DNA of 64,000 nucleotides from Nocardioides daejeonensis (GTDB taxonomy: Bacteria; Actinomycetota; Actinomycetes; Propionibacteriales; Nocardioidaceae). The position numbers and the translations under genes are program-made. The notes below the pieces were generated by a model. That model was not told the origin of the DNA. It saw nothing but the letters and a program-made list of their open reading frames with translations, and did no database searches. Shown here one piece after another: positions 8,747 through 25,277 of the stretch (the stretch's first letter is position 1; every line of letters starts with the position of its first letter). The stretch is taken from the NCBI RefSeq assembly GCF_003194585.1, contig NZ_QHKZ01000003.1, positions 248,001-312,000 of the forward strand, given 5' to 3'.

Positions 8747-11700
8747 TCACTTGAGCAGCACTCCGTTCGCGTTGGAGGCGAGGTGGTTGGCGTCACCCGC
8801 GAAGGAGACCTTGTAACCACCGCTGAGGATGAGCGTCACCAGTTGCGGTGCCGCGTTGCAGATGGCCACACCCGCCGCGTCCGTGTTGAGGGTGCACACG
8901 ACGGTGTTGCCGATCTTGAACTGCAGCGGAAGTCCGGCCAGCGGCGTGCTGCCCGAGCGGAGGGTCACCCGGAGCGAGCCCAGCGGCAGGCCCAGCGGGA
9001 GCAGCTTCACCACGGCCGCGTCGGCAGTCAGGCTGGTGGCTCGCTTGGCGACGCTCACCCCGACCTGTCCCGAGGTGCTTCCTGCGAAGGCGTCCGAGCC
9101 CGAGTAGACGGCCTTCACGTTGTGGCTCCCGGCGCCCAGGTCCGCCGTGCTGTAGCTGGCGGTGCCGGTGTTGCCCGGCCCGGCCGCCACGGCGACCGTC
9201 GCCAGCGTGGTGGCGCCGTCCATGAACTTCACCGTGCCCGTCGGGGCGCCCAGCCCGCCGGCTGCAGGGTTGACCTTCGCAGTGAAGGTGACCTGGTCGC
9301 CGTACGTGGTCGACGTCTTCGAGGCGGTCAGCGCGGTGCTGGTGCCGACCTTGGCCACCTGCTGCGTCAACGACGTCAGCGTCGGCGCGAAGTGGGCGTC
9401 GCCGGAGTAGACGGCGGTGACCAGGTGGTCGCCCGGCGAGAGCGAGGAGATCGCCGGGCTCTGTGCCGCGCCGTCCTCGATCTCGATGGCGTCGCCCAGC
9501 GGCTGGCCGTCGACCTCGAACTGGATGAACCCGGTCGGGGCGCCGGTGCCGGCCTGCTCCGAGGCGATGGTGGCAGTGAACCGGACGGCCTGGCCGTGGT
9601 CGCTGCTGTCGTCGCTCGAGGTCAGGTCGAGGGAGACGGTGGCCGCGGCGACGGTCTGGGCGAGGATGTCGCCGCTGCCGCCGTACCCGGCGTCGGGCAC
9701 GAAGGCCGCGATGACCGTGTGGTCGCCCGGGTCGGGCGAGGCGATCGTGGTGCTCTCCGCACGTCCGTTGCCGTCCAGCACCACCTGGCCGCCCAACGGC
9801 GCGCCGTCGACGCTGAACCGGATCATGCCCGTGGGCACGGTGCCGTCCTCGGCCTCCACCTGCGCGCTGAAGGAGATCAGCTCGCCGAAGGTCGACGGGT
9901 TGGCCGACGACGTCACCACCGTGGTGGTCGGGACGATCGCCGCGCCGGCGATCACCGTGTGCTGCACCTGCTGGGAGACGCTGGTCGCATAGCCCGCGTC
10001 GCCGACGTACGTCGCCACGATCTGGTGGTCGCCCGCCTCGAGGTCCGCGAGTGCCATGGTGGCCTGCGCACCGCCCGGGGAGGGCTGGACCGACGTCGCG
10101 CCGATGAGGTCGCCGTTCGCGGTGAAGCTGACCAGTCCGGTCGGGGTGCCGGAGCCCGGTGCGACCGGCGTGACCGCCGCGGTGATCGTGATGTTCTGGC
10201 CCTCCGCGGACGGCGAGGGGCTGACCAGCACGGTCGTGGTGGTGTCGGCCTGGGCGACCTGCTGCTGCACACTGGCCTGGCTGCCGTCGAAGTTCCCGGT
10301 GCCGGCATAGACAGCGGTCACCGTGTGACCGCCGGCCAGCAACGAGCCGACCGCGGGGAACACTGCGGTCCCGCCCACCAGGGTGACCGGCGAGCCGACG
10401 TTGGCTCCGTCGATCCGCAGCTGCACCGTGCCGATCGGCGTACCGACGCCCGGCGAGAGCACCGCCACGTCGGCGGTGAAGGTCACGGCCTCGCCGGAGA
10501 CGGTCGAGGGGCTCGACGAGGTCAACGTGACCTCCGTCCCGGCCTTGGTGACCGTGACCGTGCGCGGGTTGGCGGAGCTGGCCCGGTAGACGTCATCGCC
10601 GGAGTAGGTGGCGACGACATTGTGGGTACCGGCCGCGAGGTCGTCGAGGGCGAGGCTGGCCTCGCCCGAGCCGTCCAGGCCGACCGTGCCGAGCACCGTG
10701 CCACCGGAGGTGAAGGTGACCTGCCCGGTCGGGACGCCACCGGCAGTGCTGGAGACGACCGCGCCGAGGACGACCTGCTGGCCGTAGTGCACCGCCGAGG
10801 GCGTCGCCGAGCTGGTCGTGGTGGTGACCAGGAGCGGCGGGCGCACCAGGAAGGTGACCGCACCGGAGTCGCTGCCCGCGTGCTCGGCGCTGCCGAGGTA
10901 CGTCGCGGTCACGGTGTGGTTGCCGAGTCCGAGCGAGTCGATGGCGGCGCTGGTGGCCTGGCCGCCGGAGAGCGCGACCGGCGCACCGAAGTTCGCCCCG
11001 TCGATGGCGAACTGCACCGACCCGGAGGGCTGACCGGCTCCGTTCACGTACGCGGTGAAGGAGACGTTCTCGCCGTGGGTCGCCGGGGACTCGGACGGCG
11101 TGACCGTCGTGGTGGTGGTGATCTTGTCGACGGCGAAGGGGCTGCTTGCCGTAGCCGCCACCAGCGTGCTCGTGCCCGCGAAACTGGCGCTGACCGTCGC
11201 GTTGCGGACCGGCAGGCCGACGGGGAGCTGAGCGGTGGCGACGCCCGCGGCGTCGGTGGTCGCGGAGACCGTGCCGCCGCCGGAGAGCGCGAACGTGAGC
11301 TGCCGGCCCGCGGCGCTCGCCCCGGTGAGGTCGGTCAGCTTCGCCTTCACGGTCGCGTTGGTGCCGTGCTGGGCGCCGGTGTCGCCGGTGTAGGTGAGGC
11401 TGGTGCAGTTCTGGTGCGTGACCACGACGCTGGTGGCCGCCCGCGCGGCCCCGGCCGTGACGGTCACGCCCCAGTTGGCCCGCGAACCGTTCTTGCTCAG
11501 CTGGTCGCTCTCCGACGGCACGGTGATCGTGGCGCTGTAGGCGCCACCGGCACCGGTGGTGGTGGTCGCCGTGACCCGCTGTCCGGGGTTGATCTGGGAC
11601 TTGTCGAGCGCGACGTTCACCGGCACCCCGGCGGCGAAGCTGCTGAGCGTCCCGGCAACCGTGACGGTGCCGCCCGCACAGGTCAACGAAGGCGTCGCGG

Positions 11701-12625
11701 TCGCACTCACGGTCGTGCCGGCGCTCGGCGTGCTCGCCGAGGAGAGGTTCTTGGTCATCGTGAGCTTGGCGCCGTCGAGCGGCAGCACGAGTACGTCGCG
11801 TGCGTCGTTCTTGTGGGCCTGGGACCACCAGATGTTGTTGCTGGTCTGCCCGTCGGCCGAGGCCGCCGAGATCTTCTTGGTGGCGACGGTGCCGATGCCG
11901 TTCTGGGTGATGTTCTCGTTGACCACCGAGACCGGGGCCTGGAACGGGAGCACGCCCTCGAAGGTGTCCGCACCGGTGCCGCCGAGGGAGCCGGCGTCGT
12001 AGCTGAAGCCGCCTTCGTAGGTGATCTCCTGGTTCATCTGCCAGGTGTCGCCTGCGTTGAGCGGGAAGTCGTGCGTCTTCCACGACGGGCTCGGGTCGAG
12101 CTTCAGGTTGATCACGGCAGTGATCCCCTGGCTGATGATGCTGACCTTCGCGGTGGCGTTCAGGTTCTGCTTCTGGGTCTCCTGCAGGACCGCCAGGTCG
12201 GAGGTCCGCACGAACCGGGTGCCGGTGACTGAGCCGCTGAAGCCCGAGAGCGAGGCGTTGCCCACGCTGGGCACCGCGACGGAGCCGGAACCACCGGTGA
12301 TGTTGCCGCTGATGTTGAGCTTGTAGGCCTCCTGGCCCGCGAAGGTCTCGACACCGGCGACCGTGTAGACGAGGTTCTCGTTGATCGTGACGTCGGTGCC
12401 CTCGGCCTGGTAGCGGAACGAGGTGGCGTAGGTCCACGACCAGCCTGTGTTCCAGGCCGCGACGTCTTCGCCGGTGGCCTGGGCCGCGTTGGCCGGGCTG
12501 CCGCCGGCAACGCCGACGAGCACGCCCAGACAGAGCGCGAGCACGCTCGCGAACGTCAGCGGGCGCCGTACTCTCCGGGGCGACCTGGGCGGGGATACGA
12601 GGGGATCACGAGTTGCCACACGCAT
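8747..12625 (-). CDS. Secreted Ig-like repeat protein with unique N-terminal domain (1292 aa)
   Basis: The chosen start is the ATG at 12625, which puts a signal peptide (SVLALCLGVLVGVAGG ... ANA) close to the N-terminus; an upstream start at 12787 would add 54 residues that do not look like a leader. Residues about 50-330 form a beta-rich domain of unknown type with many Asn, Thr and Gly residues. About eight Ig-like domains follow, with YSGDD/YSGSD end motifs and PTG-VQF strands. The C-terminal 100 residues carry the special domain LAGLPLQFKIG...GGYKVSFAGDANHL shared with the downstream protein. No sorting signal or C-terminal membrane helix is present. The shared final domain and adjacency point to tandem duplication and a joint extracellular function. 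The ligand is unknown. Confidence 0.78.
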   Translation of the reverse strand: MRVATRDPLVSPPRSPRRVRRPLTFASVLALCLGVLVGVAGGSPANAAQATGEDVAAWNTGWSWTYATSFRYQAEGTDVTINENLVYTVAGVETFAGQEAYKLNISGNITGGSGSVAVPSVGNASLSGFSGSVTGTRFVRTSDLAVLQETQKQNLNATAKVSIISQGITAVINLKLDPSPSWKTHDFPLNAGDTWQMNQEITYEGGFSYDAGSLGGTGADTFEGVLPFQAPVSVVNENITQNGIGTVATKKISAASADGQTSNNIWWSQAHKNDARDVLVLPLDGAKLTMTKNLSSASTPSAGTTVSATATPSLTCAGGTVTVAGTLSSFAAGVPVNVALDKSQINPGQRVTATTTTGAGGAYSATITVPSESDQLSKNGSRANWGVTVTAGAARAATSVVVTHQNCTSLTYTGDTGAQHGTNATVKAKLTDLTGASAAGRQLTFALSGGGTVSATTDAAGVATAQLPVGLPVRNATVSASFAGTSTLVAATASSPFAVDKITTTTTVTPSESPATHGENVSFTAYVNGAGQPSGSVQFAIDGANFGAPVALSGGQATSAAIDSLGLGNHTVTATYLGSAEHAGSDSGAVTFLVRPPLLVTTTTSSATPSAVHYGQQVVLGAVVSSTAGGVPTGQVTFTSGGTVLGTVGLDGSGEASLALDDLAAGTHNVVATYSGDDVYRASSANPRTVTVTKAGTEVTLTSSSPSTVSGEAVTFTADVAVLSPGVGTPIGTVQLRIDGANVGSPVTLVGGTAVFPAVGSLLAGGHTVTAVYAGTGNFDGSQASVQQQVAQADTTTTVLVSPSPSAEGQNITITAAVTPVAPGSGTPTGLVSFTANGDLIGATSVQPSPGGAQATMALADLEAGDHQIVATYVGDAGYATSVSQQVQHTVIAGAAIVPTTTVVTSSANPSTFGELISFSAQVEAEDGTVPTGMIRFSVDGAPLGGQVVLDGNGRAESTTIASPDPGDHTVIAAFVPDAGYGGSGDILAQTVAAATVSLDLTSSDDSSDHGQAVRFTATIASEQAGTGAPTGFIQFEVDGQPLGDAIEIEDGAAQSPAISSLSPGDHLVTAVYSGDAHFAPTLTSLTQQVAKVGTSTALTASKTSTTYGDQVTFTAKVNPAAGGLGAPTGTVKFMDGATTLATVAVAAGPGNTGTASYSTADLGAGSHNVKAVYSGSDAFAGSTSGQVGVSVAKRATSLTADAAVVKLLPLGLPLGSLRVTLRSGSTPLAGLPLQFKIGNTVVCTLNTDAAGVAICNAAPQLVTLILSGGYKVSFAGDANHLASNANGVLLK

Positions 12626-12820
12626 GTCTTCATCTCTCGAACGTGTCGCCCTCCCATGGCCCACCACGAACCAGCGACGCGCGGAGTCAAGCAGGAACGT
12701 GTTGCAGGTCTCAACGGTGGTCTGGACCGGGCCCCGGCGCCGTGTAACCTCCCCGCCCAGAATTCGTTCTCCCCATTTCTGGGGCACTCGTCCCGGTCGT
12801 TACCTTCGCGCCTCAAAGGC

Positions 12821-12882
12821 GATCGTCCCTAACAGTTTCGTGGTCGATCCGGCTCGGGACCACGAAACTGTTAGGGACGATC
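12821..12882. repeat. Palindromic repeat element, copy 2
   Basis: Arms of 25 nt (12821-12845 and 12858-12882) pair perfectly around a 12-nt loop, and two further base pairs extend the stem. One arm position differs from copy 1 (CAGTTTCG instead of CAGATTCG) and the other arm carries the matching change, so pairing is preserved. It lies 16 nt after the thiolase stop codon on the minus strand. The rest of the 272-nt gap to the Ig-repeat gene holds no gene that I can support. Confidence 0.9.
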
Positions 12883-12897
12883 GCTCGTGCGGGGGTG

Positions 12898-14088
12898 CTA
12901 CCTGGCCACGATCACCGAGGAGCCGTGGCCGAAGAGGCCCTGGTTGGCGGTGATGCCCACCCGCGCGCCCTCGACCTGGCGTCCTTCGGCCTGGCCGCGC
13001 AGCTGCCAGGTGAGCTCGCAGACCTGGGCCAGCGCCTGGGCCGGAACGGCCTCGCCGAAGCAGGCCAGCCCCCCGGACGGGTTGACCGGGATGCGACCGC
13101 CGATGGTGGTGTCGCCGGCGCGCAGCAGCGCCTCCGCCTCGCCGCGCTTGGCAAGCTGCAGGTCCTCGATCCAGTCGAGCTCGAGTGCCGTCGACAGGTC
13201 GTAGACCTCGGCGACCGAGACGTCCTCGGGCGCGATCCCGGCCTCCTCGTACGCCGCGTGACCGATCGACTCCTTGAAGGTCAGCTCCGGGGCGGCCACC
13301 GCAGCCGTCGACTCGGTCGAGAAGAGCGGCATGTCGATGATCGTGTTGGGGAAGGTCGGCGTGACCGTCGAGATGGCCTTGATCTTCACCGGGTCGGCGA
13401 TGCCGTGCTTGCGCGCATATTCGACCGACGTCACGAGCACTGCGGCACCACCGTCGGAGGTCGCACAGATGTCGAGCAGGTGCAGCGGGTCGGCGACCAC
13501 AGCGGAGTTCACCACGTCCGCGACGCTGACCTCCTTGCGGTAGCGGGCATAGGGGTTGTTGAGCCCATGACGCGCGTTCTTGACCTTGACCGCGGCGAAG
13601 TCCTCGGACGTGGCGCCGTACAGGTCCATCCGGCGTCGCGCATAGAGCGCGAAGTACCCCGGGTTGGTCATGCCCATGAGCTTGAAGCGCAGCCAGTCAG
13701 GGTCGTCCCAGCGCTCCCCCGCGTTGGGCGCCAGGAAGCCCTTCGGAGTCGTGTCGGCGCCGACGACCAGAGCCACCTCGGCCTGACCGGCGAGGATCCG
13801 GGAGCGCGCGGTGTCGAGCGCCTGCGCGCCGGTCGCACAGGCGGCGTACGACGTGGCGACGCGCGCGCCGTTCCAGCCGAGCGCCTGGGCGAAGGTCGAA
13901 CCGGCGACGTAGCCGCCGTACCCGTTGCGCACGGTCTCGCCGCCGACGATCAGGTCGACGTCCTGCCACGGCACGCCGGCGTCGGCCAGCGCGGCGCGGG
14001 CCGCCTTGACGCCGTACTTGACGAACGAGTGGCCCCACTTGCCCCAGGGGTGCATGCCGACACCCAGGATGGCGACGTCGTTGCTCAT
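12898..14088 (-). CDS. Thiolase-fold protein, SCPx/lipid-transfer type
   Basis: A 396-residue protein starting SNDVAILGVGMHPWGKWG, typical of the actinobacterial thiolase branch annotated as acetyl-CoA acetyltransferase or lipid-transfer protein. The nucleophile region SYAACATGAQAL has Cys at residue 84, and the tail keeps a GHGSS motif. The canonical GHP of biosynthetic thiolases is absent, with NPSGGLACFGEAVPAQ in its place. This is the SCP-x/Ltp-like pattern associated with cleavage of branched or sterol side-chain acyl-CoAs. Its ATG overlaps the stop of the DUF35 gene by one base (TGATG), and such pairs usually form a complex in which DUF35 binds the acyl-CoA. Substrate is not deducible here. 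An open frame extending upstream in the same register is not the real start. Confidence 0.85.
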   Translation of the reverse strand: MSNDVAILGVGMHPWGKWGHSFVKYGVKAARAALADAGVPWQDVDLIVGGETVRNGYGGYVAGSTFAQALGWNGARVATSYAACATGAQALDTARSRILAGQAEVALVVGADTTPKGFLAPNAGERWDDPDWLRFKLMGMTNPGYFALYARRRMDLYGATSEDFAAVKVKNARHGLNNPYARYRKEVSVADVVNSAVVADPLHLLDICATSDGGAAVLVTSVEYARKHGIADPVKIKAISTVTPTFPNTIIDMPLFSTESTAAVAAPELTFKESIGHAAYEEAGIAPEDVSVAEVYDLSTALELDWIEDLQLAKRGEAEALLRAGDTTIGGRIPVNPSGGLACFGEAVPAQALAQVCELTWQLRGQAEGRQVEGARVGITANQGLFGHGSSVIVAR

Positions 14089-14531
14089 CAGTTGCCTCCC
14101 TCGGCTGCGGCGGTCGGGCGCCACTTCCACATGGTCTTCACGGTGCCGTCCTCCTCGGTCCAGGCCGGCTCGACCACGAGCTCGACCGGGGCACCGACCT
14201 TCACCGAGTCGACACCGAAGCCGCTGGCCAGCTGTCCGAGGACGACGATGCCCTCGGGCAGTTCGACGGCAGCCAGCGCGAAGGGCTGGTAGGGGTCGGA
14301 GGTCGGCGTGTACGGCGCCGGCGGCTGGTACTGCGCATCGGTGTAGGACCAGACCACGCCGGTGCGGGAGAGCTCGGCGTCGACGAACGTCTCGCCGTCG
14401 CACGCAGGGTTGCGACAGAAGTCGACTCCCTTCGGGAAGGCCAGCGTGCCGCAGGCCTCGCACTTGCTCGCGATCAGCGCGGGCTCGGAGCCGGTGGTGA
14501 ACCAGCCCTCCACCGCAGGTGTCTCGGTCAT
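14088..14531 (-). CDS. DUF35 OB-fold / zinc-ribbon acyl-CoA-associated protein
   Basis: A 147-residue protein beginning MTETPAVEGWFTTG. Near residue 25 it has the rubredoxin-like zinc ribbon KCEACGTLAFPKG...FCRNPAC, followed by an OB-fold region with PEGIVVLGQLASGFG. This two-part layout is the DUF35 family (ChsH2/Ltp2-partner type), which joins thiolase- or hydratase-fold partners to make heteromeric enzymes on CoA thioesters. It is the upstream member of a translationally coupled pair with the thiolase-fold protein. The 256-nt stretch between this gene and pstB holds its promoter region and the pstB terminator; I see no other gene there. Confidence 0.85.
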   Translation of the reverse strand: MTETPAVEGWFTTGSEPALIASKCEACGTLAFPKGVDFCRNPACDGETFVDAELSRTGVVWSYTDAQYQPPAPYTPTSDPYQPFALAAVELPEGIVVLGQLASGFGVDSVKVGAPVELVVEPAWTEEDGTVKTMWKWRPTAAAEGGN

Positions 14532-14747
14532 TCGCCTCGCCTGTCCTCGTCGACGTCGGAACACACGGATTGTGCCGCATCGACGGGCCGGGCCGGTCTC
14601 TTGTTCCGTTCAGCGCCCGCAGCGGGATGTGAGGTGTGCCTCAGCCGCACTCCCCGGCATCTCCACGCCACGACGGCGTACGCCCCACACGTCCCACTGT
14701 GTGACGAAAACTGTTGCTTGGTGTGTGTAGCTACGGCCGACAAGCAC

Positions 14748-14775
14748 CAGTTTCCCCGCCCGGGCGGGGAAACTG
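14748..14775 (-). terminator. Perfect 28-nt palindrome after pstB
   Basis: A self-complementary sequence centred on CCCGGG (left half CAGTTTCCCCGCCC) lies 13 nt beyond the pstB stop. It would form a very stable stem ending the pst transcript. There is no separate loop in the primary sequence, so a few central pairs must open. Confidence 0.7.
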
Positions 14776-14787
14776 ATCGAGGGCGGG

Positions 14788-15681
14788 TCAGCCAAACCGA
14801 CCGTTGACGTAGTCCTCGGTACGGCGGTCGCGGGGGTGTTGGAACATGGCTTCGGTGTCGCCGTGCTCGACGATGACGCCGGGGGTGCCCTGCTCGGCGA
14901 GGAAGAAGGCGCAGCGGTCGGAGACGCGGGCAGCCTGTTGCATGTTGTGGGTGACGATGACGATGGTGACCTCTTCGGCGAGCTCGAGCATCGTCTCCTC
15001 GATCACCCGGGTGGAGGTGGGGTCGAGGGCTGAGCAGGGCTCGTCCATGAGCAGCACCCGAGGGCGGATCGCGAGCGAGCGGGCGATGCACAGGCGCTGC
15101 TGCTGACCACCGGAGAGGCCACCTCCGGGGGCGTCGAGGCGGTCCTTGACCTCGTTCCAGAGCCCCCCGCGGATCAGACAGCTCTCCACGAGCTCCTCCT
15201 TCGTGGCGCGGGAGGCCCGGGTGCCGGTGAGCTTGAGACCGGCCAGCACGTTCTCGCGGATGGACATCGCCGGGAACGGGTTGGGCTTCTGGAAGACCAT
15301 CCCGATCTCACGGCGCGCGTCGATCAGCCGCTTGTCAGGGGCGTAGATGTCGGAGCCGTCCAGGAGCACCTCGCCGGCCAGGGCCGCCGAGGGCACCAGC
15401 TCGTGCATCCGGTTGAGGATGCGCAGGAACGTCGACTTGCCACAGCCGGACGGCCCGATCAGGGCGGTGATGCCGCCTGCCGGCATCGTCAACGACACCC
15501 GGTCGAGCACCCTGCGGTCGCCGAACCAGGCCGTGATCTCTCGCGCCTCGAGGGTCGCCAGGCCGTCTGTGCGCCGGTGCCGGAGGCCCCGCAGCTGATC
15601 GATCTCGCGCGGGACGCCGGCGCCGGGCGGCACCGCCGGGATGGTGGTGGTCTCGTCGTTGGTGACGGCCGGACTGCTCAC
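14788..15681 (-). CDS. pstB: Phosphate ABC transporter ATP-binding protein PstB
   Basis: A 297-residue ABC ATPase that powers high-affinity phosphate uptake through PstC/PstA. Walker [10 protein letters not shown] is at residues 76-84; the Q-loop reads VFQKPNPFP; the signature is LSGGQQQR; Walker B is [12 protein letters not shown]; and the switch His is in VTHNM. An N-terminal extension of about 45 residues precedes the ATPase fold. The GTG start follows CAGGAG. It is the last gene of the seven-gene pst cluster and is separated from pstS by a 70-nt gap containing a strong hairpin. No phoU gene is nearby. Confidence 0.96.
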
Positions 15682-15750: not shown

Positions 15751-17580
15751 TCACTTCTGCGTGACCGTGACGGTGGCCGAGGCGGCCTTGAGGTTGCCGT
15801 TGCCGGCGAAGCTGACGGTCAGCTTGTGCTTGCCCTTCTTCAGGGACTTGAGCGTCACCTTCGCGACACCCGCCTTGAGCGTGCCGGTGCCGAGGACCTT
15901 CTTGCCCTCCTTGACCGTCACCTTGCCGGACGCCTTCAGCGCGCTGCCCGGGATGGTGACGGTGACCTTGCCCGACGCCTTCTTGTTCTTCTTGATCTTC
16001 TTCGCGAACGCGGACTTCAGGCTGGTGATGCCCTTGCTCACCGCGAGCTCCGCGGTCGCCGTCCCCGTGCCGTACGTCGCGTTGCCCGCATAGGCGACCG
16101 CCACGGTCTGGGTGCCCACCGCCACGTCGGCAGGGAGGGTGAGGGTCGCCGTACCGGACGCCAGGCTGCCAGTGACCTTCTTGCCACCGGCGGTCGCGGT
16201 GACCTGACCGGTCACCTCGCCGGCCGCCCCGGTGACAGTGACCGTGACCTTCGCCGCCTTGCCGTAGCTGGTGCTGACCGGGGCGACCACGGCAGCGACC
16301 TGCGCAGCAGCCTTGACCGTGACGGCGACCGGCGCGGAGACAGAGCCCTGGTAGGCGACTCCGGTCGGCAGGAAGCGTGCAGTGTAGTTGTGCGCTCCCG
16401 CAGCGACGCCGGTCAACGTCTTCTTGGCAGTGCCTTGCGCGATGCTCGCCTCACCGACGACGGTCTCGCCCTCGAGGAACTGCACCTTGCCGTCGGGCGC
16501 GTTGCCGCCCGCGCTCACGGTGGCGCTCAGCGCCACGGTGCCGCCTGCGGGTGAGGTGGCGGTCAGTGCGGTCTGGGTGGCCTGGGCGACGTTGGTGGCG
16601 AAGTTCGACGAGGCACCCTGCGTGGCCTCGCCGCAGACACCGCCGTTGGTCGGGCGCGCCATCTGGTCGAACCCGGCAGCCTCGATCAACGGGCGGGCGG
16701 CGTCGGAGCAGATGAAGCCGTCGGAGCCGAAGACGCCCAGGATGTCGGCCTTGGCGACGTCGGCCTGGCGCACCACGTTGTAGAGCGCCCGCTTGGCGCT
16801 CAGGCCACCGGCGACCAGGTTCAGGGTGCCGTCCAGCTTCGCCCGGCCGGCCGAGAAGGGGGCGATGGCATGGGGGTTGGCCTTGATCGGGGTGTCGTCG
16901 TGCTCCTGCACCTCGACGACGCTGCCGGCCAGGGTCGGCGCGTTGCCGCCGTTGATCCGCTTGAGCTCGCCCTCGAAGAAGGAGCGGGTTCCGGAGCCCG
17001 ACTGGGGAATCATCGGCACGATGACGCCGGACTTGCCGCCGATCTGGCTCCAGTTGGTGACCTGCCCGGTGTAGATCTTCAGCAGGTCGGCCTCGGAGAC
17101 CGAGGCCGGGGCGTTGCTGCCCTTGGCGATGGCCATCTCGAGCACGTCGACGGCGAACGGGAACGCCTGGAGCCCCGCCTCCTTCTCGGCGCTGTTCAGC
17201 GCGGAGGAGGAGCGAGCGTAGTCGACGTCGGCGTCGTTGGCGGTGCCGTAGAGCCGGCCCTTGCCGGCGCCGGAGCCGTTGGGCCGGGTGATCGGCGTGG
17301 CGCCCTGGACCAGGGTGACGTTGCCGCCACCGGTGGCGTCGAAGGAGACCAGGCGGTTCGTGCTCTTGCCGGCGTTGTATCCGGGGACGGCGACACCGTT
17401 CACGGTGTGCCCGTCCGCCAGGTAGCCGAGCGCGAACTGGCTGGTGTCGGAGCCGACACCGACCAGGTCGGTGGACTGCGGGACGAAGGTCGGGTCGGCC
17501 GAGGCGGCCGGGGCCGCCGCGAACGAAGCCACCACGACGGCGGCGGTCGCCAGACCTGCGGCGTACCTGCGTGCAGACAT
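15751..17580 (-). CDS. pstS: PstS-type phosphate-binding protein with C-terminal Ig-like domains
   Basis: A 609-residue exported protein; the ATG at 17580 follows GAGGAG. After the signal peptide (ending APAASA) residues about 30-340 are a type-2 periplasmic binding domain: GVGSDTSQFA near the start, a YARSSSALNS segment, LLKIYTGQVTNWSQIGG and PQSGSGTRSFFEGEL, all PstS-like anion-binding landmarks. Residues about 345-609 contain roughly three Ig-like beta domains ending in Lys-rich segments (KKIKKNKKASGKV). There is no lipobox and no C-terminal membrane helix, unlike usual Gram-positive PstS lipoproteins, so it may be extracellular or bound to the wall by its Ig domains. It follows the sortase-like gene by 75 nt. 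Confidence 0.82.
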   Translation of the reverse strand: MSARRYAAGLATAAVVVASFAAAPAASADPTFVPQSTDLVGVGSDTSQFALGYLADGHTVNGVAVPGYNAGKSTNRLVSFDATGGGNVTLVQGATPITRPNGSGAGKGRLYGTANDADVDYARSSSALNSAEKEAGLQAFPFAVDVLEMAIAKGSNAPASVSEADLLKIYTGQVTNWSQIGGKSGVIVPMIPQSGSGTRSFFEGELKRINGGNAPTLAGSVVEVQEHDDTPIKANPHAIAPFSAGRAKLDGTLNLVAGGLSAKRALYNVVRQADVAKADILGVFGSDGFICSDAARPLIEAAGFDQMARPTNGGVCGEATQGASSNFATNVAQATQTALTATSPAGGTVALSATVSAGGNAPDGKVQFLEGETVVGEASIAQGTAKKTLTGVAAGAHNYTARFLPTGVAYQGSVSAPVAVTVKAAAQVAAVVAPVSTSYGKAAKVTVTVTGAAGEVTGQVTATAGGKKVTGSLASGTATLTLPADVAVGTQTVAVAYAGNATYGTGTATAELAVSKGITSLKSAFAKKIKKNKKASGKVTVTIPGSALKASGKVTVKEGKKVLGTGTLKAGVAKVTLKSLKKGKHKLTVSFAGNGNLKAASATVTVTQK

Positions 17581-17655
17581 CAAACACTCCTCATCGGTTG
17601 GTGCTGCGTTGTGTTTCCAGGGCCCTGGGCCGGTCGGCCCGAGGGAGTTCGGGGG

Positions 17656-18564
17656 TCATACGAGGTTGGGCAGCAGGCGCATCGCGGCGTCCGTCGTGGC
17701 CCACGAGAGCGCCAGGACGACGGGCGTCGCCATGACCCAGGTGAGGACGCCGGACCAGCGCTGCCGGAGCAGCACGATGAGGGCGGTCGCACCCACCAGC
17801 AGGCCGAGGAGCAACGCCAACCGAGGCAGGATCGCCTGGTCGACGGCCATCGCCCGCTCCTCCTCGGGCACGGCGCCCAACCGGCCCGCGGGCGCCGGGA
17901 AGCCCTCCTTGGCGGAGGCGTCGACGTAGACGACCTCCCCGCGGCTCAGCGCGGCGAGTCGGCCGGTGCCCTCGGCGGAGACCAGGGTCAGCCGCGCCTC
18001 CTGCTCGACCGGCCGGGCCGGTAGCGGATCGCCGGCGCGCCGGATTCCGGTCACGGTGAACACCTGGGTGCCCTGACCCGCGACCACCTCGATCCGGTCG
18101 CCGGCCGTCAGCTCGGCGATCCGGCCGAACGGCGCACCGTACGTCGCACCCTTGCCGTAGATCACCGACGTGCCTACCTGGCCCGGCAGGGGTGTGTCCC
18201 GACGGTGACCGGGGCCGCTCAGGAGCGCGCCGGAGGACGTGCCCTCGACGACGACCTGCTCGAGGCCCAGGCCGGGGACGGTGAGCAGGCTGACCGGCGT
18301 CCGTTCCGGCACCACCGGACCGACCGGTGCGACCGCCGTGGCCAGGTCGCTCCGGAATCGGTCGTGCAGCAACGCCTGCTCCCGGTCCTGCGAGAGCGAG
18401 CCGAGGAAGAGCACCTGCGCGGCGAACCAGAGCGCGAGGATCCCGACCACGGTGAGTGCGGTGGAGAACAGCCGCAGCTGCTCCTCGTGGGTCGAAGGGG
18501 GCTGCGTCAGCTGCGCGGCCGGCCGGCGCCGGCTGCCGGCGCGCACCGGCGTGGCCGTGGTCAT
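17656..18564 (-). CDS. Class E sortase homologue lacking catalytic His and Cys
   Basis: A 302-residue membrane protein with one helix near residues 34-55 and two near 236-290. Residues about 90-215 follow the class E sortase fold closely: GPGHRRDTPLPGQVGTSVI, TYGAPFGRIAEL, TAGDRI and ARLTL. In active enzymes the strand before TYGAPF reads AGHR and the catalytic strand reads TLxTC. Here they read YGKG (Lys138 at the His position) and TLVSA (Ala197 at the Cys position), so transpeptidase activity should be lost. An Arg (R208) remains near the expected place. Its ATG overlaps the upstream stop by four bases. The neighbouring products carry no obvious LPXTG or LAXTG signal. A scaffold or assembly role in the Pst complex is inference. 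Confidence 0.82.
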   Translation of the reverse strand: MTTATPVRAGSRRRPAAQLTQPPSTHEEQLRLFSTALTVVGILALWFAAQVLFLGSLSQDREQALLHDRFRSDLATAVAPVGPVVPERTPVSLLTVPGLGLEQVVVEGTSSGALLSGPGHRRDTPLPGQVGTSVIYGKGATYGAPFGRIAELTAGDRIEVVAGQGTQVFTVTGIRRAGDPLPARPVEQEARLTLVSAEGTGRLAALSRGEVVYVDASAKEGFPAPAGRLGAVPEEERAMAVDQAILPRLALLLGLLVGATALIVLLRQRWSGVLTWVMATPVVLALSWATTDAAMRLLPNLV

Positions 18565-21092
18565 CGCGCCCTCCGCAGTCGGAGGGTGAGGCGTGCGGCG
18601 CCCGAGAGCATGCCGCCGAGCACCGCCAGCAACAACACCAGCGGCAGCGCGACCCGACCGAGCCCGGAGCCGGCATCCGGCGTTGCGGTGGTCGCACCGG
18701 TAGGCACGACGTTCGCGTCGACCGGCTTCTCGTCCCCCGGTTCCTCCGCGCCGGGGGCATCGTCGGCCGTCGGTGCGGTCTCCGGTGCCGGATCGCCCGT
18801 CGGTGTCGCGGTGTCGGTCGGCTCCGGCTTCGGAGGTGACGACTCCCGCTGCGCTGCCACGGCGGTGGCGACGGACTGCGCGGACCGGAACAGCGGAGCG
18901 GTCGCGCCGGTGTCCCGGATCGGCAGGTAGCCGGCGGGGAGCTGACCGTTGCCGCGGCCGGGCCGCTGCCCCTCACGCGTCGACACCCGGATGAACTGAG
19001 CGACCTTCGCAGCCTCGGCCCGGTCCATCCCCGAGGTCCGGGCCGCGGTGTAGACGACCATCGTGCCCGGGTAGGCGCGGCCTGCCTTGCGGACCGCTGC
19101 CTGCTTGATGACGAAGGGCAGCATCGTGCCCGGCTGCCTGCCCAACCGCACGGCTGCTGCGAGGCTCTCCTGGGTCGGCGCCACGAACCGCCCGGGGGCG
19201 GTCTGCAGCGACGCGTTGCGCAGTCCGAAGCGCGCGGAGTCACCGAGGCTCACGATGCCGAGCACGAACCGCGTGCCCACGCCCTGCCGATCGATGCGGC
19301 CGAGCTTCCACGGGTCGTCCACGGTGGCTCGCTCGCACTTGGTCTGCACGTTGGGCCAGGCGTCGAGGAGCGCCTCGGCGATCTTGCGCAGCGTCGAGAC
19401 CGGGGCCGCCAGCTGCGTGAAGTACGGCGCGGGGTTGAGCTTGAGGCACTCCCGCTCGCTGGCGGGCACGTAGCTGTCGAGCATCGGCCACTCCCGGGTG
19501 GGCAGCGCGATCCCCTTGTACGACGGGTTCACCACCATCCCCCACCGGTCCGGCTTGCCGGCGACGAAGGCCCGCGCCTCGGGATCCGCGGCGATCCAGG
19601 AGGTCAACGTCTCGATCACGTCCGAGGACTCCGAGAGCGACAGCACGGTCGCCGCCGCCTCCCGGGAGATCTCGTCGAGTCCCGGGTTGAGCTCACGGAA
19701 CTCGGGATCGTTGTTGATCGCGAGCGGGTTGCCGGCCATCCCGGGATGGCCACGGCCCAGGTCCGAGCCGAGATAGGACTGGGTGAGCAGCTTCGCCACC
19801 AGACGCGGGGTGAGCCGCAGGTCGGCGTACTCACCGGCATTGTCGGGGCGGTCGATCGAGTAGCCGATCGCGAAACCGGTCACCGCGGTGGGCGCGTAGC
19901 CGACGGGATCCGACCCCTCCGTCTCGCGCTGCCCGGAGACGAGGGCGGCCGCACCCTGGCCGGTCTCCATGATCTTGAAGCCGGCCTCGTCGGGCATCCG
20001 GTTGTGCTGGAACTTGAAGCGGCTCTTGTCCAGGCAGTACGCCGGAGACCACTGCAGCGCCGCCTGCGAGAGCAGCTCCGAGCCGTAGAAGCCGGTCGGC
20101 GGACGTGTGTCCTGGATGTCGCAGGTATCCGCAGGCAGACCGAACGTCACCGGGAACGTGAAGCGGTTGCGCCAGTTGGACGCCGACCACCAGAGTTCGG
20201 GCGAGACGGCCAGGTCGATGCCCTGCTTGGCGAAGTTGCTCGAGCCCGGCAGCCAGCGCCCGGCCCGGCGACACTCGAGGTCCTCGTCCACGCAGCTGAT
20301 GCCCATGATCGGGATGACCACGATGGCGCACGCAGTGGTTGCGGAGCAGCCCAGGGACTCGTTCTCGACCTCACTGCGGAGCTCGAAGCTCACCGTGCCG
20401 TCACCGTTCGCGTCGGTGAAACCGGCCACCTCGGCGGGTGGGTACGCCGCCCCGACCGCTGCCTCGGGAGGCATTGTCGCCGCGGTGCAGGCGAGGTACT
20501 CCTTGCCGTCGGCGGTCCGGAAGGGCGTGACCCTCGAGGAGAACGTGGCGGGGTCCTCGCACTCGCTGCTCGGGAACGGCTCCCGGCCGGACTTGGCCGC
20601 GCGCTCGGTCTCGGAGGCGTAGAGGTCGTGGCGCCAGACCGCCGTACGGTCGGGCACGACAAGACTGCGCTGCTGCCGGGTGGACGTCCAGCACGTCTCA
20701 GGGCTGAGCTGCCGGGCAGCCGGGGCCGACGGGTCGTCCACGCCGCGACACTGGAGCACGACGACGGGGTACTCCTGCGTCATCCCGTTCTCCCCGTAGG
20801 GATCCGCAGCGCGGGCTCCGCTCGGACGCGCACCCGACCAGCTGACCCGCACCCGCTCGCGGCCGCGCAGCTGCCTGGTCTGGCTGACCGAGACGGAGAC
20901 GTCGCGCTCATCGATCACCTCGGCCGCGTCGCCCTCGCCGAAGACCCGCTGGAGCTGCTTGGTCTGGGTGACCGCACCGGAGTCGGCACGCGGTGCCGAC
21001 GTGGCCCCGGAGCTGGGTCCGGTGACAAGCAGGCCGACCATGCTGAGGCAGCCGACGAGGACGACCGCAAGACCACGGAGGAGCGCGCTCAT
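18561..21092 (-). CDS. Large membrane-anchored protein with PstS-like binding domain (843 aa)
   Basis: The start ATG at 21092 overlaps the preceding stop by one base. A signal peptide (about residues 1-30) is followed by a beta-rich N-terminal domain with several Cys residues and a DANGDGTVSF calcium-loop-like motif. From about residue 270 the sequence resembles type-2 periplasmic binding proteins (GQGAAALVSG, AVTGFAIGYSID, LTPRLVAKLLTQSY), distantly related to PstS. A Pro/Thr/Glu-rich linker precedes a C-terminal membrane helix (VALPLVLLLAVLGG) with an RLRRAR tail, so the domain faces outward. The exact ligand is unknown. Its place between pstS and the sortase-like gene, with overlapping ends, argues for a shared complex. 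It could bind a phosphorylated compound rather than phosphate itself. Confidence 0.72.
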   Translation of the reverse strand: MSALLRGLAVVLVGCLSMVGLLVTGPSSGATSAPRADSGAVTQTKQLQRVFGEGDAAEVIDERDVSVSVSQTRQLRGRERVRVSWSGARPSGARAADPYGENGMTQEYPVVVLQCRGVDDPSAPAARQLSPETCWTSTRQQRSLVVPDRTAVWRHDLYASETERAAKSGREPFPSSECEDPATFSSRVTPFRTADGKEYLACTAATMPPEAAVGAAYPPAEVAGFTDANGDGTVSFELRSEVENESLGCSATTACAIVVIPIMGISCVDEDLECRRAGRWLPGSSNFAKQGIDLAVSPELWWSASNWRNRFTFPVTFGLPADTCDIQDTRPPTGFYGSELLSQAALQWSPAYCLDKSRFKFQHNRMPDEAGFKIMETGQGAAALVSGQRETEGSDPVGYAPTAVTGFAIGYSIDRPDNAGEYADLRLTPRLVAKLLTQSYLGSDLGRGHPGMAGNPLAINNDPEFRELNPGLDEISREAAATVLSLSESSDVIETLTSWIAADPEARAFVAGKPDRWGMVVNPSYKGIALPTREWPMLDSYVPASERECLKLNPAPYFTQLAAPVSTLRKIAEALLDAWPNVQTKCERATVDDPWKLGRIDRQGVGTRFVLGIVSLGDSARFGLRNASLQTAPGRFVAPTQESLAAAVRLGRQPGTMLPFVIKQAAVRKAGRAYPGTMVVYTAARTSGMDRAEAAKVAQFIRVSTREGQRPGRGNGQLPAGYLPIRDTGATAPLFRSAQSVATAVAAQRESSPPKPEPTDTATPTGDPAPETAPTADDAPGAEEPGDEKPVDANVVPTGATTATPDAGSGLGRVALPLVLLLAVLGGMLSGAARLTLRLRRAR

Positions 21093-22735
21093 CAGAGGCC
21101 GACCTTGCCGGGCCGACGGCGCCGAAGCCACGCCGCACCGAGCCCGGGCAGCAGAATCAGGGCGAAGAGCTCGGCAACAGCGAGCCATCCGAAGGCCGTG
21201 CGCTCGGCCCGCCGATCAGCGCTCACCTCCGTCGGATTGGCGAACACCTCCGCGGCGGCAGCCGTGCCGTCGTCGACGACCGGCTGCCCGGTCTCCGGGT
21301 CGACCGCGGGGGGAGCGTCCGGGTCGCTGCCCGGCGCATCCGGTCCGCCGGGGCCGGAGCTGTCGGTCGTGTCCGGCGTACCGTCACCGTCACTGTCATC
21401 GGTCGAAGGCTTGCCGGTGCCGGTCTCGGTGCCGCAGGGCCCGGCCCCGGCCTTGTCGCAGGCAGCCGGCATCGGGGCGGTCTTGGCGAGCTTGTTCTCG
21501 TTCAGATTGCCGGCGACGAAGGTGGGGTTGTTGCAGCGGGTCACGTCACGATTCGAGGCGTCCACCCCGCTGTCGGCCTTGGCCAGCCGGCCCAGCTGGT
21601 CGAAGCCCGCCTTCACGAGGTTGAGCGGCAGCGGCGAATAGCCGTAGGGGCCTGCCTTCGACTGACCCTCGCACAACGAGTAGTACATGAAGTCCATCAG
21701 CGTCTGTCGCTTCGCCGTCGTCATCCGGCGGTCGTCGGCGCCGATCGGCAGGATCATGTAGGAGTACGAGGACAACGGATAGGCCCGCGGATCCGTGGCC
21801 CGATAGACGCCGTCGAGGATCTGGGTCAGGTACATCTGGCTGTTCTTGTCCTGGTTGATCCGCGCCTTCGTCAGCGCCACCGCGACGTTGTACTGGGTCG
21901 GCTCGACGTAGTAGCCACCCTTGTTGAGCACCTTCACGACCGGAAAGTGCTTGTTGACCGGGTAGCTGTATTCGACGTACGCGATCGTGCCGTTGCCCGC
22001 GAACCCGGCAACGGTGTTCATCACCTGGTCGGAGCCCGACTGAGCAAGCGCCCGTCCCTTGCGCGGGTAGTAGGAGGTGAAGCCGGAGCGCCCGAAGAAG
22101 GGGCGCCACAGCGACGGGTACTCCTTGTCGAGCCAGGTGGTGAACTGCGCCGTCGTGCCGGAGCCGTCGGAGCGCACCACCGGAGTGATGTCGAGACTGG
22201 GCAGCGCGCGGCCGTTGTTGTCCTTGGTGATCGCCGGATCGTTCCAGTTGGTGATCTTGTTGGTGAAGATCTTCGCCAACGTCTCGCCCGAGAGCCGCAG
22301 GTTCTTGATCATCTTCCCGCCGACCTTGATCTGGTAGGTGAACGCGGTGCCGCCGGCGACGATCGGCAGGTAGGCGTACTCGCGGCCGTTGGCGTTGTCG
22401 GGGTTGCCGAACTCGTCGACGCCCGGATACGGGATCTCGCTGATGCCGAAGTCGGTGACACCCTGCGCGAAGTTCTTCCGGCCCATCGAGGAGCCGCCGC
22501 CGCTGTAGGTCACCTTCATGCCGCTGGCGTCGACGTCCGCGATCCACTGCTGCACGATCACCTCGGACCAGGTGGAGCCGGAGCCCTCGATCTGGGCGTA
22601 GCTCGGGCGGGCCGCCGGCCCGGAGGCCCCGAGCGCGGCGGCCGGGACGAGGATCGCGAGGCCGAAGGTCAGGGCGGCGGCGAGGCGCACGCGGGCACCT
22701 CTGGCCGTGAGAGTGGTGGCGAACGGGCGGATCAA
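21092..22735 (-). CDS. pstS: Membrane-anchored phosphate-binding protein PstS
   Basis: A 547-residue protein from a TTG at 22735, chosen because GGAGGAA lies 4-5 nt upstream and the TTG overlaps the pstA stop (TTGA). After the signal peptide, PstS landmarks appear in order: IEGSGSTWSEV, SGGGSSMGRKNFAQG, TDFGISEIPY, LAKIFTNKITNWNDPAI and VVRSDGSGTTAQF. An acidic linker with DSDGDGTPDTTD, like a thrombospondin-type-3 calcium repeat, leads to a C-terminal membrane helix and an RRRR tail. There is no lipobox. Anchoring a PstS by its C-terminus instead of by lipid is unusual. This is the most canonical phosphate-binding subunit of the three in the operon. Confidence 0.88.
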   Translation of the reverse strand: MIRPFATTLTARGARVRLAAALTFGLAILVPAAALGASGPAARPSYAQIEGSGSTWSEVIVQQWIADVDASGMKVTYSGGGSSMGRKNFAQGVTDFGISEIPYPGVDEFGNPDNANGREYAYLPIVAGGTAFTYQIKVGGKMIKNLRLSGETLAKIFTNKITNWNDPAITKDNNGRALPSLDITPVVRSDGSGTTAQFTTWLDKEYPSLWRPFFGRSGFTSYYPRKGRALAQSGSDQVMNTVAGFAGNGTIAYVEYSYPVNKHFPVVKVLNKGGYYVEPTQYNVAVALTKARINQDKNSQMYLTQILDGVYRATDPRAYPLSSYSYMILPIGADDRRMTTAKRQTLMDFMYYSLCEGQSKAGPYGYSPLPLNLVKAGFDQLGRLAKADSGVDASNRDVTRCNNPTFVAGNLNENKLAKTAPMPAACDKAGAGPCGTETGTGKPSTDDSDGDGTPDTTDSSGPGGPDAPGSDPDAPPAVDPETGQPVVDDGTAAAAEVFANPTEVSADRRAERTAFGWLAVAELFALILLPGLGAAWLRRRRPGKVGL

Positions 22736-23928
22736 CGCTTCCTCCAAGGGGTGGGTACGCCGCCGCGCAGCACAGGTACGGCGGCACGCAGACGGTGCCG
22801 GAGCTTCGGTTTCGCCGAGCGCGGCCGGGCGGCCAGGCGCGCCACCACGAAGAGCACGAGCACGAGGCCGAGCAGCACGGTGGCGGCGGCGAACGCGCGG
22901 GACTCGGCCATCGGCTCACCACTGCGCACGGTGCTGAAGATGTAGAGCGGCAGTGAGTTCATGACGCCGGACGTCGGGTCGGTCACCATGAAGGTGGCTG
23001 CGCCCGAGGTGAGCAGCACCGGCGAGGTCTCACCGATGCCGCGCGCAATGCCGAGGATCAGCGCGGTCGCCAGGCCCGGACGCGCGGTCGGCAACACCAC
23101 GTGCCACACGGTGCGCCAACGGCTGGCGCCCAGCGCGAGGCTGGCCTCGCGCAGGTTGCCCGGCACCACGCGCAGGACCACGTCGGAGGCGCGGGCGATG
23201 ATCGGCAGCATCATCACGGCGATCGCCAGTGCCGCGGCGATGCCGGACTTGGGTACCCCGAGGGCGACGATCAGCACGGTGTAGATGAACAGGCCGGCAA
23301 CGATCGAGGGCAGCGCCGTCATCGCCTCGACGATGGTGCGCACCACCCGGGCGAACCGGCCACCGACCTCGGTCATGTAGACGGCCGTGCCGATCCCCAG
23401 CGGCACCGTGACCGCGATGGCGATGCCGATCTGGATCAGGGATCCGACGATCGCGTGCGCGACACCGCCTCTGGTGAACGGGTCGCGGGGGCCGATCCCG
23501 GACATGTCCTGGGTGAAGAAGTTCCCGTGCAGCAACGGCTCCCAGCCGCGCCGCACCGTGTAGACGACGACGCTGACCAGAGCGAGACCCACCAGGCCCG
23601 CGGCACCGGTGATCACGGTCCGCGCGAGTCGGTCCACGAGATCGACGCGTCGAGCGGTCAACACGGAGGTGACACCGATCATCACCAACCCGCAGAGGAA
23701 CCAGACGATCAGGAACCACGGCAGACCCGCCAGCGGCAGCAGGCGCTGGGTCACCAACCAGGCCAGCGCGAGAGCAGCGACCCAGACGCCCCACTGGAGC
23801 AGACGCTCGTCAGGGTTCGCGGCACCGAGTCCGCGGCGGGCGACCGGTCGCGGAGCGCTCTCGTCACGGACGGGGAGGACCGTCTCGCCGGCGTACGGAC
23901 GCTGGAGCTCGGGAGCTGCCTGTGCCAT
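22732..23928 (-). CDS. pstA: Phosphate ABC transporter permease PstA
   Basis: A 398-residue integral membrane protein. Hydrophobic segments at the N-terminus are followed by the binding-protein-dependent permease core with AMTALPSIVAGLFIYTV and the EAA-type loop REASLALGASRWRTVWHVVLP that contacts PstB, then GIARGIGETSPVLLT. The ATG at 23928 overlaps the pstC stop by one base; a GTG at 23931 is an equally coupled alternative. It forms the membrane channel with PstC. The N-terminus, with about three additional hydrophobic stretches before the core, is longer than in E. coli PstA (296 residues). Confidence 0.94.
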   Translation of the reverse strand: MAQAAPELQRPYAGETVLPVRDESAPRPVARRGLGAANPDERLLQWGVWVAALALAWLVTQRLLPLAGLPWFLIVWFLCGLVMIGVTSVLTARRVDLVDRLARTVITGAAGLVGLALVSVVVYTVRRGWEPLLHGNFFTQDMSGIGPRDPFTRGGVAHAIVGSLIQIGIAIAVTVPLGIGTAVYMTEVGGRFARVVRTIVEAMTALPSIVAGLFIYTVLIVALGVPKSGIAAALAIAVMMLPIIARASDVVLRVVPGNLREASLALGASRWRTVWHVVLPTARPGLATALILGIARGIGETSPVLLTSGAATFMVTDPTSGVMNSLPLYIFSTVRSGEPMAESRAFAAATVLLGLVLVLFVVARLAARPRSAKPKLRHRLRAAVPVLRGGVPTPWRKR

Positions 23929-24935
23929 CACGCCTCCGCCCCGGCACCTGAACGGCTGCGGTTGACGATGATCGAGGCGAGGGTGTTGATGACCAGTGTG
24001 ATCACGAAGAGGACGAAGCCGGCGGCGAGCAGTGCGGAGAGCTGGGCCGGGCTGGCGTCGCCGAATCGACCGGCGATCAGCGCACTGATCGAGTTGCTGC
24101 CGACCTCGAGCACGCGCAGCTTCACGTCGAAGGCCGGCGAGATGATCAGCAGCACAGCGATGGTCTCGCCGAGCGCCCGGCCGAGGCCGAGCATGGTGCC
24201 GCCGATGATGCCGCCGCGACCGAAGGGCAACACCACGGCGCGAACGACGCCCCAGCGGGTGGCGCCGAGGGCGAGTGCAGCCTCCTTCTCGCCGGGCGGG
24301 GTCTGGGAGAAGACCTCACGCATGACGGCGCAGGCCATCGGCATCACCATCATCGCGACGGCGATGCCCGCGCAGAAGGCGCTCGACACGTAGCGGCTGC
24401 GGTCCCACATGGCCGCGTTCGGATCGGCGTCCACGTCGAAGAAGGGCAGCCAGCCGAGGTGCTGGTGCATCCAGAGCGCCAGCTCGGCTGCATGCGGCAT
24501 CACCAGCAGCGCGCCCCACAGGCCGTAGACGATGCTCGGCACCGCGGCCATCAGGTCGACCAGCGAGATCAGTGTGGGTCGGACCCTGAACGGCGCGTAC
24601 TCGCTGATGTAGAGGGCAGTGGCCAGGGCGAGAGGGAACGCGATGGCCAGGGCGACGAGCGCGATCGAGACGGTGCCGGCCAGCACCGCTCCGATGCCGA
24701 GCACGTTCGCCTCGGGCTGCCAGGCGGTCTCGGTGAAGAACGACCAGCCGTAGCGCTTGAGTGTGGGCACCGCCTGCCAGGCCAGGAAGACGCCGATGCC
24801 GCCGGTGATGGCGAGCACTGCGGCACCGACCGCGGTAGCGCTCAGCTCGAAGAGGCGATCAGTGCCCGTCGCGCGGCGGGCGAGCCGTCGCGGCGCGATC
24901 TCGGCCGCGGCTGGCTCAGGAAGGGTGGTGGTCAA
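23928..24935 (-). CDS. pstC: Phosphate ABC transporter permease PstC
   Basis: A 335-residue permease, first gene of the operon, with a TTG start at 24935. The core shows LVDLMAAVPSIVYGLWG, a large outward loop with a WDRSRYVSS segment, and the coupling loop EKEAALALGATRWGVVRAVVLP followed by LGLGRALGETIAVLLII, the conserved PstC/PstA signature. Six main membrane helices are apparent. The 357-nt region upstream carries a PHO-box-like direct repeat and a 22-bp tandem array, and it separates the operon from the lytic transglycosylase gene. The ribosome binding site is weak, so the exact start is uncertain. Confidence 0.93.
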   Translation of the reverse strand: MTTTLPEPAAAEIAPRRLARRATGTDRLFELSATAVGAAVLAITGGIGVFLAWQAVPTLKRYGWSFFTETAWQPEANVLGIGAVLAGTVSIALVALAIAFPLALATALYISEYAPFRVRPTLISLVDLMAAVPSIVYGLWGALLVMPHAAELALWMHQHLGWLPFFDVDADPNAAMWDRSRYVSSAFCAGIAVAMMVMPMACAVMREVFSQTPPGEKEAALALGATRWGVVRAVVLPFGRGGIIGGTMLGLGRALGETIAVLLIISPAFDVKLRVLEVGSNSISALIAGRFGDASPAQLSALLAAGFVLFVITLVINTLASIIVNRSRSGAGAEA

Positions 24936-25053: not shown

Positions 25054-25077
25054 CCTGAGTGAACGCCCGACGAACGG
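25054..25077 (-). promoter_or_regulatory. PHO-box-like direct repeat upstream of pstC
   Basis: On the minus strand CGTTCGT and CGTTCAC start exactly 11 nt apart. This matches the spacing of the 11-bp direct repeats with a GTTCACC core bound by PhoP in streptomycetes. It lies about 120 nt before the pstC start. Only two units are visible and the first is imperfect, so the assignment is tentative. Confidence 0.4.
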
Positions 25078-25123
25078 CGCTCATGGGTTCCGGGAACGAA
25101 CCTCCCCGCCCGCCACCCTCAGC

Positions 25124-25277
25124 GTCGAAACGCCAGCTTCAGCGGGTCGAGACGCCAACTTCAGCACGTCGAGACGCCAACTTCAGCGGGTCGAGACGCC
25201 AACTTCAGCACGTCGAGACGCCAGCTTCAGCGGGTCGGGGCGCCAGCTTCAGCGGGTTGAGACGCCAGCTTCGTCGG
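25124..25277. repeat. 22-bp tandem repeat, seven units
   Basis: Seven contiguous 22-bp units with core GAGACGCCARCTTC. Units vary at the last positions, alternating CGG and CAC in the first four, which makes a 44-bp higher-order period. There are no spacers, so this is not a CRISPR array. It lies between the transglycosylase stop and the pstC promoter region. The same unit recurs in opposite orientation at 26100 and 251. Confidence 0.92.

Follow-up and report, generated by a model that had tools for sequence, protein, structure and literature searches.

The enzymes called sortases attach proteins to the cell wall, and the reference for their class E in the current study was SrtE of Streptomyces (5go5/5go6, 5cuw; NF033747). 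Five sortases, of classes E and F, are described in the main text on Actinoplanes missouriensis (PMC13251363), where a word search found neither phosphate nor catalytic residues mentioned. The literature searched, without subscription papers and preprints, contained no description of an inactive sortase that is conserved or linked to pst genes, and the term 'pseudosortase' was absent from it. We know of no conserved pseudo-sortase family described so far. Here, a 64,000-nucleotide (nt) stretch of Nocardioides daejeonensis DNA (contig NZ_QHKZ01000003.1, positions 248,001–312,000; 'the window', in whose numbering coordinates are given) was analysed for such a gene, pSrt (pseudo-sortase; nt 17656–18564, minus strand), which lies among phosphate transport (pst) genes. 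Its product is a sortase homologue lacking the catalytic His, Cys and Arg, and on balance we favour the view that it is a non-catalytic membrane docking subunit in extended pst operons of Actinomycetes.

Sortase fold and loss of the catalytic residues

pSrt is a complete open reading frame of 302 amino acids (aa). It scores 52.3 bits against PF04203, above the curated cut-off of 26.6, and the same domain is matched by 64/64 of its relatives (E-values up to 0.001). The AlphaFold model (predicted local distance difference test, pLDDT, 93.5) has a sortase beta-barrel; the predicted domain occupies residues 76–222, approximately (nt 17899–18339), according to structural matches that cover at most residues 57–223 and to Foldseek. 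By the Pfam model and the predicted fold, pSrt is a sortase homologue. Three modelled helices (residues 25–75, 243–269 and 272–295) reach the length of a membrane helix. Within the first, the limits of the predicted membrane segment were estimated, with the sequence read by eye, as 33–56 (nt 18397–18468), while the second (nt 17758–17838) and third (nt 17680–17751) form a predicted C-terminal hairpin followed by a conserved LLPNL end. Positions in this hairpin and the LLPNL are among the conserved residues, and R175 and R191 are near invariant in the family. A preliminary description of this DNA, made from the sequence alone, had proposed the sortase-like fold, the intact frame and the three membrane helices, and all three proposals agree with these results.

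Alignment columns were assigned by aligning the family profile to Streptomyces SrtE 5go6 (His of AGHR, Cys of TLVTC). Lys138 (nt 18151–18153) falls in the catalytic-His column and Ala197 (nt 17974–17976) in the catalytic-Cys column, as had been described, but that count of lost residues was incomplete: the catalytic-Arg column holds Val211 (nt 17932–17934). Since 22 of the 192 full-length relatives are identical to another over residues 25–302 (at least in part one species present in two collections), the counts use 170 distinct proteins; locus L195, where the start assignment yielded a 30-residue model, was excluded. The His column contains Arg in 161 and Lys in 9 of them and His in none, Lys138 of the window protein being a minority state. 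In the Cys column are Ala (123), Ser (28), Gly (11), Thr (6) and Val (2), with no Cys, and the Arg column has no Arg and a single Lys. An orthologue with intact catalytic residues was thus sought and found in 0/170, nor was any intermediate between the active and the residue-less state seen among the fetched loci. A Tyr in the beta3/beta4 loop is proposed in PMC5148588 to read LAxTG in class E sortases; the column after GPGH, which our reading of the GHY motif equates with this residue, has Tyr in 0/170 (R 109, L 34, Q 11, and others).

Active sortases behaved differently under the same treatment. His, Cys, Arg and Tyr are all present in 6/6 active near relatives fetched in the same way, and His and Cys are kept in 20/20 sortases of the same bacterial family (14 by pattern, 6 by eye; a non-random set, with 17 from the nearest partial matches and 3 being the other sortases of the source genome), so that 26/26 controls retain the pair. 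Displacement of His and Cys to other positions of the protein, which the preliminary description had named as evidence against a pseudo-enzyme, was not found: a Cys occurs anywhere in the domain in only 1/72 family proteins (3 of 75 full-length matches were left out of those fetched), at an unrelated position, and the sole conserved His column of the family (120) is also His in the six active relatives. Judged by the defining features tested in these sequences, pSrt belongs neither to the sortase enzymes nor to class E. Lacking nucleophile, base and substrate-contacting Arg, the barrel should not function as a sortase, and the earlier suggestion of a pseudo-enzyme is strongly supported.

Distribution, selection and phylogeny

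Among 198 genomes of the bacterial family, 75 full-length relatives (E<1e-30) were found in 58 genomes, below which there is a sharp fall to partial matches with ordinary sortases; this boundary was chosen after viewing the gap. Among 296 Actinomycetes genomes drawn evenly, 41 had a relative, a few of these relatives being fragments at contig ends, and 32 of the 41 genomes lie outside the family. Named records among the best 80 of 355 relatives belong to Nocardioides, Aeromicrobium, Mumia, Pimelobacter, Cellulomonas, Amycolatopsis, Jiangella, Streptomyces, Actinoplanes and Asanoa. Public records label members of the family as sortase, sortase A or class E sortase, despite the absent catalytic residues. 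At least two full-length pseudo-sortase genes per genome occur in G191 (where they are ~13 kb apart), G185, G076, G078, G110 and others.

The ratio of nonsynonymous to synonymous substitution rates (dN/dS) was 0.077–0.288 for the 12 closest of 56 pairs, indicating that the family is under purifying selection. In a tree of 79 pseudo-sortases and 26 active sortases, one branch separates all 79, which suggests a single origin with moderate support (81/79; 80% of bootstraps, the bootstrap not having settled). Two long class F-like sequences of the source genome (L215 and L216) join beside the pseudo-sortases, a join flagged as possibly false. The closest named relative of the source genome in the tree is Nocardioides alcanivorans.

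Linkage to pst genes and to PBP875

A pst gene (pstC, pstA, pstB or pstS1) was present in the fetched stretch at 157/159 loci, and a pst gene or the gene for PBP875 (described below) at 158/159 (six-frame search, E<1e-25), with a median gap from pSrt to the nearest of 344 bp and a maximum of 3.7 kb. At 34 further class-level loci, 32 had one of these genes (E<1e-15), or 190/193 in all; the counts of 159 and 193 contain repeats (137 distinct of 158), and the three exceptions are L204 (a 5.2-kb contig with the gene at its edge) and L241 and L242, in which the gene is close to the end of its contig. Orthologues lacking the same residues stay beside pst genes, an outcome that the preliminary description had named as support for a conserved pseudo-sortase. 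At the 137 distinct loci, PBP875 was detected in 130, pstB in 128, pstS1 in 122, pstA in 115 and pstC in 110 (E<1e-25). No pst gene or PBP875 was found beside control sortases (0/20 at E<1e-25, 0/6 at E<1e-15). The stringent threshold is quoted for the 159 loci because the PstB query is unspecific at looser ones, where generic ATP-binding cassette (ABC) ATPases match: a PstB-like match was obtained in 14/20 controls at E<1e-10, 8/20 at E<1e-15 and 0/20 at E<1e-25.

Next to pSrt is PBP875 (875 aa; nt 18561–21188, minus strand), with which it overlaps: the pSrt start and the stop of this preceding gene share 4 bp, in line with the translational coupling suggested earlier. PBP875 has no Pfam or NCBIfam match. 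It is predicted to have an N-terminal domain, a binding-protein fold of the PstS type at residues 360–780, and a C-terminal hydrophobic helix. In a single hhalign alignment, the PstS1 loop RSDGSGTT, which holds phosphate-ligand residues, stands opposite LSESSDVI in PBP875. A PBP875 gene was found at 152/159 loci, and in the 7 misses pSrt lies at most 1.7 kb from the upstream contig end; the pairing is near-obligate, and the two genes often overlap. At L243 (nt 9823–15035, minus strand) four PstS2-labelled genes stand in a row between the PBP875 relative and the pseudo-sortase.

In the window, the operon (all on the minus strand) comprises the permeases PstC (nt 23928–24935; TIGR02138, 249.1 bits, cut-off 196.45) and PstA (nt 22732–23931; TIGR00974, 217.2 bits, cut-off 193.45), the phosphate-binding protein PstS1 (nt 21092–22747; TIGR00975, 194.7 bits, cut-off 205; PF12849, 147.8 bits), PBP875, pSrt, the PstS-like protein PstS2 (nt 15751–17583) and the ATPase PstB (nt 14788–15681; TIGR00972, 334.5 bits, just below the cut-off of 343.2). 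Read by eye, PstS1 ends in a hydrophobic segment and a basic terminus, and no membrane anchor was seen on PstS2. A further, short pst locus, encoding a PstS of 362 aa, lies elsewhere in the source genome, and PstC occurs in 190/198 family genomes, far more than the 58 with a pseudo-sortase; the pSrt-bearing extended operon is therefore an extra system.

Upstream of pstC, a 22-bp tandem repeat (6.8 copies) lies at nt 25123–25272. A PHO-box-like direct repeat with 2 mismatches (nt 25060–25075, minus strand) precedes pstC by about 125 bp. The PHO-box-like pattern scanned for is no commoner in the window than chance (30 matches, 35 expected), so the site is a mere curiosity.

Wall-linked neighbours

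The other parts of the operon point towards the cell wall. PstS2 carries three Big_3_5 immunoglobulin (Ig)-like stretches by domain scan. Downstream of pstB (nt 8747–12787, minus strand) a 1346-aa secreted-looking protein has eight stretches of this same domain type. Between it and pstB are a thiolase-like gene and an overlapping gene of the ChsH2 type, with OB-fold and zinc ribbon (nt 12898–14564, minus strand).

Elsewhere, a signal of the LAxTG/LPTTG type terminates the product of the first called gene upstream of pSrt at L189, L197 (a 144-aa piece at a contig end), L200, L206, L211, L212, L244 (on the same contig as L189), L247 and L248. All four of these proteins that were scanned (L200, L206, L212, L244) have Big_3_5 Ig domains. 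Only L[PA]xTG in the next called upstream gene was counted; a looser pattern gave 13 loci, several of which either lay at a distance from pSrt or were spurious, matching LGSTA-like strings in the tails of PBP875. The tails of PstS1, PBP875 and PstS2 in the window were read by eye as candidate LPxTG substrates and were rejected, as no LPxTG-like signal was seen in them. The WxLIP_PGBD domain is over its cut-off near pst genes at L188 (nt 5364–6392, Amycolatopsis), L200 (nt 12012–13571, Virgisporangium), L212 (nt 12112–13152, Asanoa) and L239 (nt 6900–8423), and below it at L257 and L265. WxL is at or just above its cut-off at L188 and L212 and below it at L200, L239 and L264, and neither type was found among the window proteins scanned.

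Possible function of pSrt

Because the residue loss is kept widely and the same partner gene is nearly always present, pSrt is likely to be a docking part of a larger phosphate-capture machine. It would dock PBP875, a predicted membrane-anchored PstS fold, beside the phosphate permease. The two proteins would bind each other, either through the conserved Arg-rich region of the former active site or through the C-terminal membrane hairpin. The His column has turned into a conserved positive charge, and this may be read, with R175, R191, the hairpin and LLPNL, as a set of docking features. By way of PBP875, the complex would hold extracytoplasmic phosphate-binding proteins (PstS1, PstS2 with its Ig domains and, in lineages other than this one, wall-anchored proteins) near PstC/PstA, to which captured phosphate might thereby be passed efficiently. 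More tentatively, a second, extended Pst system may exist in Actinomycetes, a surface phosphate-capture machine built around two disarmed proteins, the pseudo-sortase and a pseudo-PstS, in which phosphate would be handed from wall-bound Ig-domain binding proteins (secreted, LAxTG- or WxL-anchored according to lineage) to PstCAB. On this reading, pSrt and its relatives would be the first pseudo-sortases known to form a conserved family.

Several observations weigh against the docking role. pSrt does not adjoin PBP875 at 39/130 loci, and outside Nocardioidaceae its neighbour is often an Ig-domain protein or pstB instead. No PBP875 match was obtained in 4/32 class-level genomes with pSrt; three of these are only 78–86% complete, while in G392 (97% complete, L272) pSrt stands with pstC, pstA, pstS1 and pstB but PBP875 went undetected. 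Such co-occurrence would also be expected of any pair of required components in an operon, and the Fisher p for pSrt and PBP875 is no true probability, since the genomes are related.

The near-obligate pairing and frequent gene overlap would also fit a chaperone-like assembly factor that folds or inserts PBP875 and stays outside the finished complex. This is unlikely, as assembly alone would leave unexplained why a set of Arg residues is conserved around what was once the active site. Retention of the sortase fold, together with the LAxTG/LPTTG-type signal that ends the next upstream gene in some lineages, is compatible with a binding-only receptor, or decoy, for LAxTG/LPxTG signals that would hold sortase substrates uncleaved at the membrane. 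We consider such a receptor rather unlikely: the class E Tyr proposed to read LAxTG (PMC5148588) is missing in 170/170, the Arg that may contact the substrate backbone is lost, and the window tails read by eye carry no such signal. A regulatory or sensory subunit that reports outside phosphate occupancy to PstCAB through the membrane hairpin could draw on the conserved hairpin residues and LLPNL and on the basic residue in place of the catalytic His, but appears quite improbable, the model showing neither a signalling domain nor a sizeable cytoplasmic part. The database names, fold and Pfam match might be taken to mean that pSrt is an active sortase or transpeptidase whose active site has shifted; this is very improbable and was rejected, as the nucleophile column is Ala in 123/170 and Gly or Val in 13 more, no Cys is conserved in the domain (1/72 has any), and the conserved His 120 is shared with six active relatives. 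Loss of catalytic residues could, finally, mark a decaying pseudogene, which was rejected as having next to no probability given the open frame, dN/dS of 0.08–0.29 and conservation of the same loss across many families, and a peculiarity of one genome was rejected likewise, relatives occurring in many genomes.

The preliminary interpretation stands in part. A partner for anchored phosphate-binding proteins gains indirect support from PBP875 co-occurrence, gene overlap and the conserved membrane-helix residues, while binding of sorting signals as substrates is weakened, the substrate-contacting Arg and class E Tyr being absent in 170/170.

Catalysis is what defines a sortase and guides its annotation, and here a class-wide family without catalytic residues has many members named 'sortase'; sortase counts for actinobacterial genomes would therefore be inflated where they are based on names or domain hits. 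A larger, unstudied form of the Pst transporter is also indicated, in which two additional predicted membrane proteins are a constant feature, and the passage of phosphate through the thick Gram-positive wall to the permease becomes a testable question.

Comparison with known systems

Corynebacterium diphtheriae SrtF (5uus) and the class C/D sortases are presumably catalytic enzymes, unlike pSrt. From class E sortases pSrt differs in lacking their His, Cys, Arg and substrate Tyr, in not reaching the NF033747 cut-off (63.3 bits against 160), and in having two extra predicted C-terminal membrane helices and a tie to pst genes. Surface complexes of WxL and WxL-interacting proteins are similar in that related loci (L188, L200, L212, L239) hold WxLIP_PGBD, but here the link is to phosphate transport genes. 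The window operon resembles canonical PstSCAB, with PstC and PstA over their curated cut-offs and PstB and PstS1 just under, and adds to it pSrt, PBP875 (predicted PstS fold) and a PstS-like protein with Ig domains.
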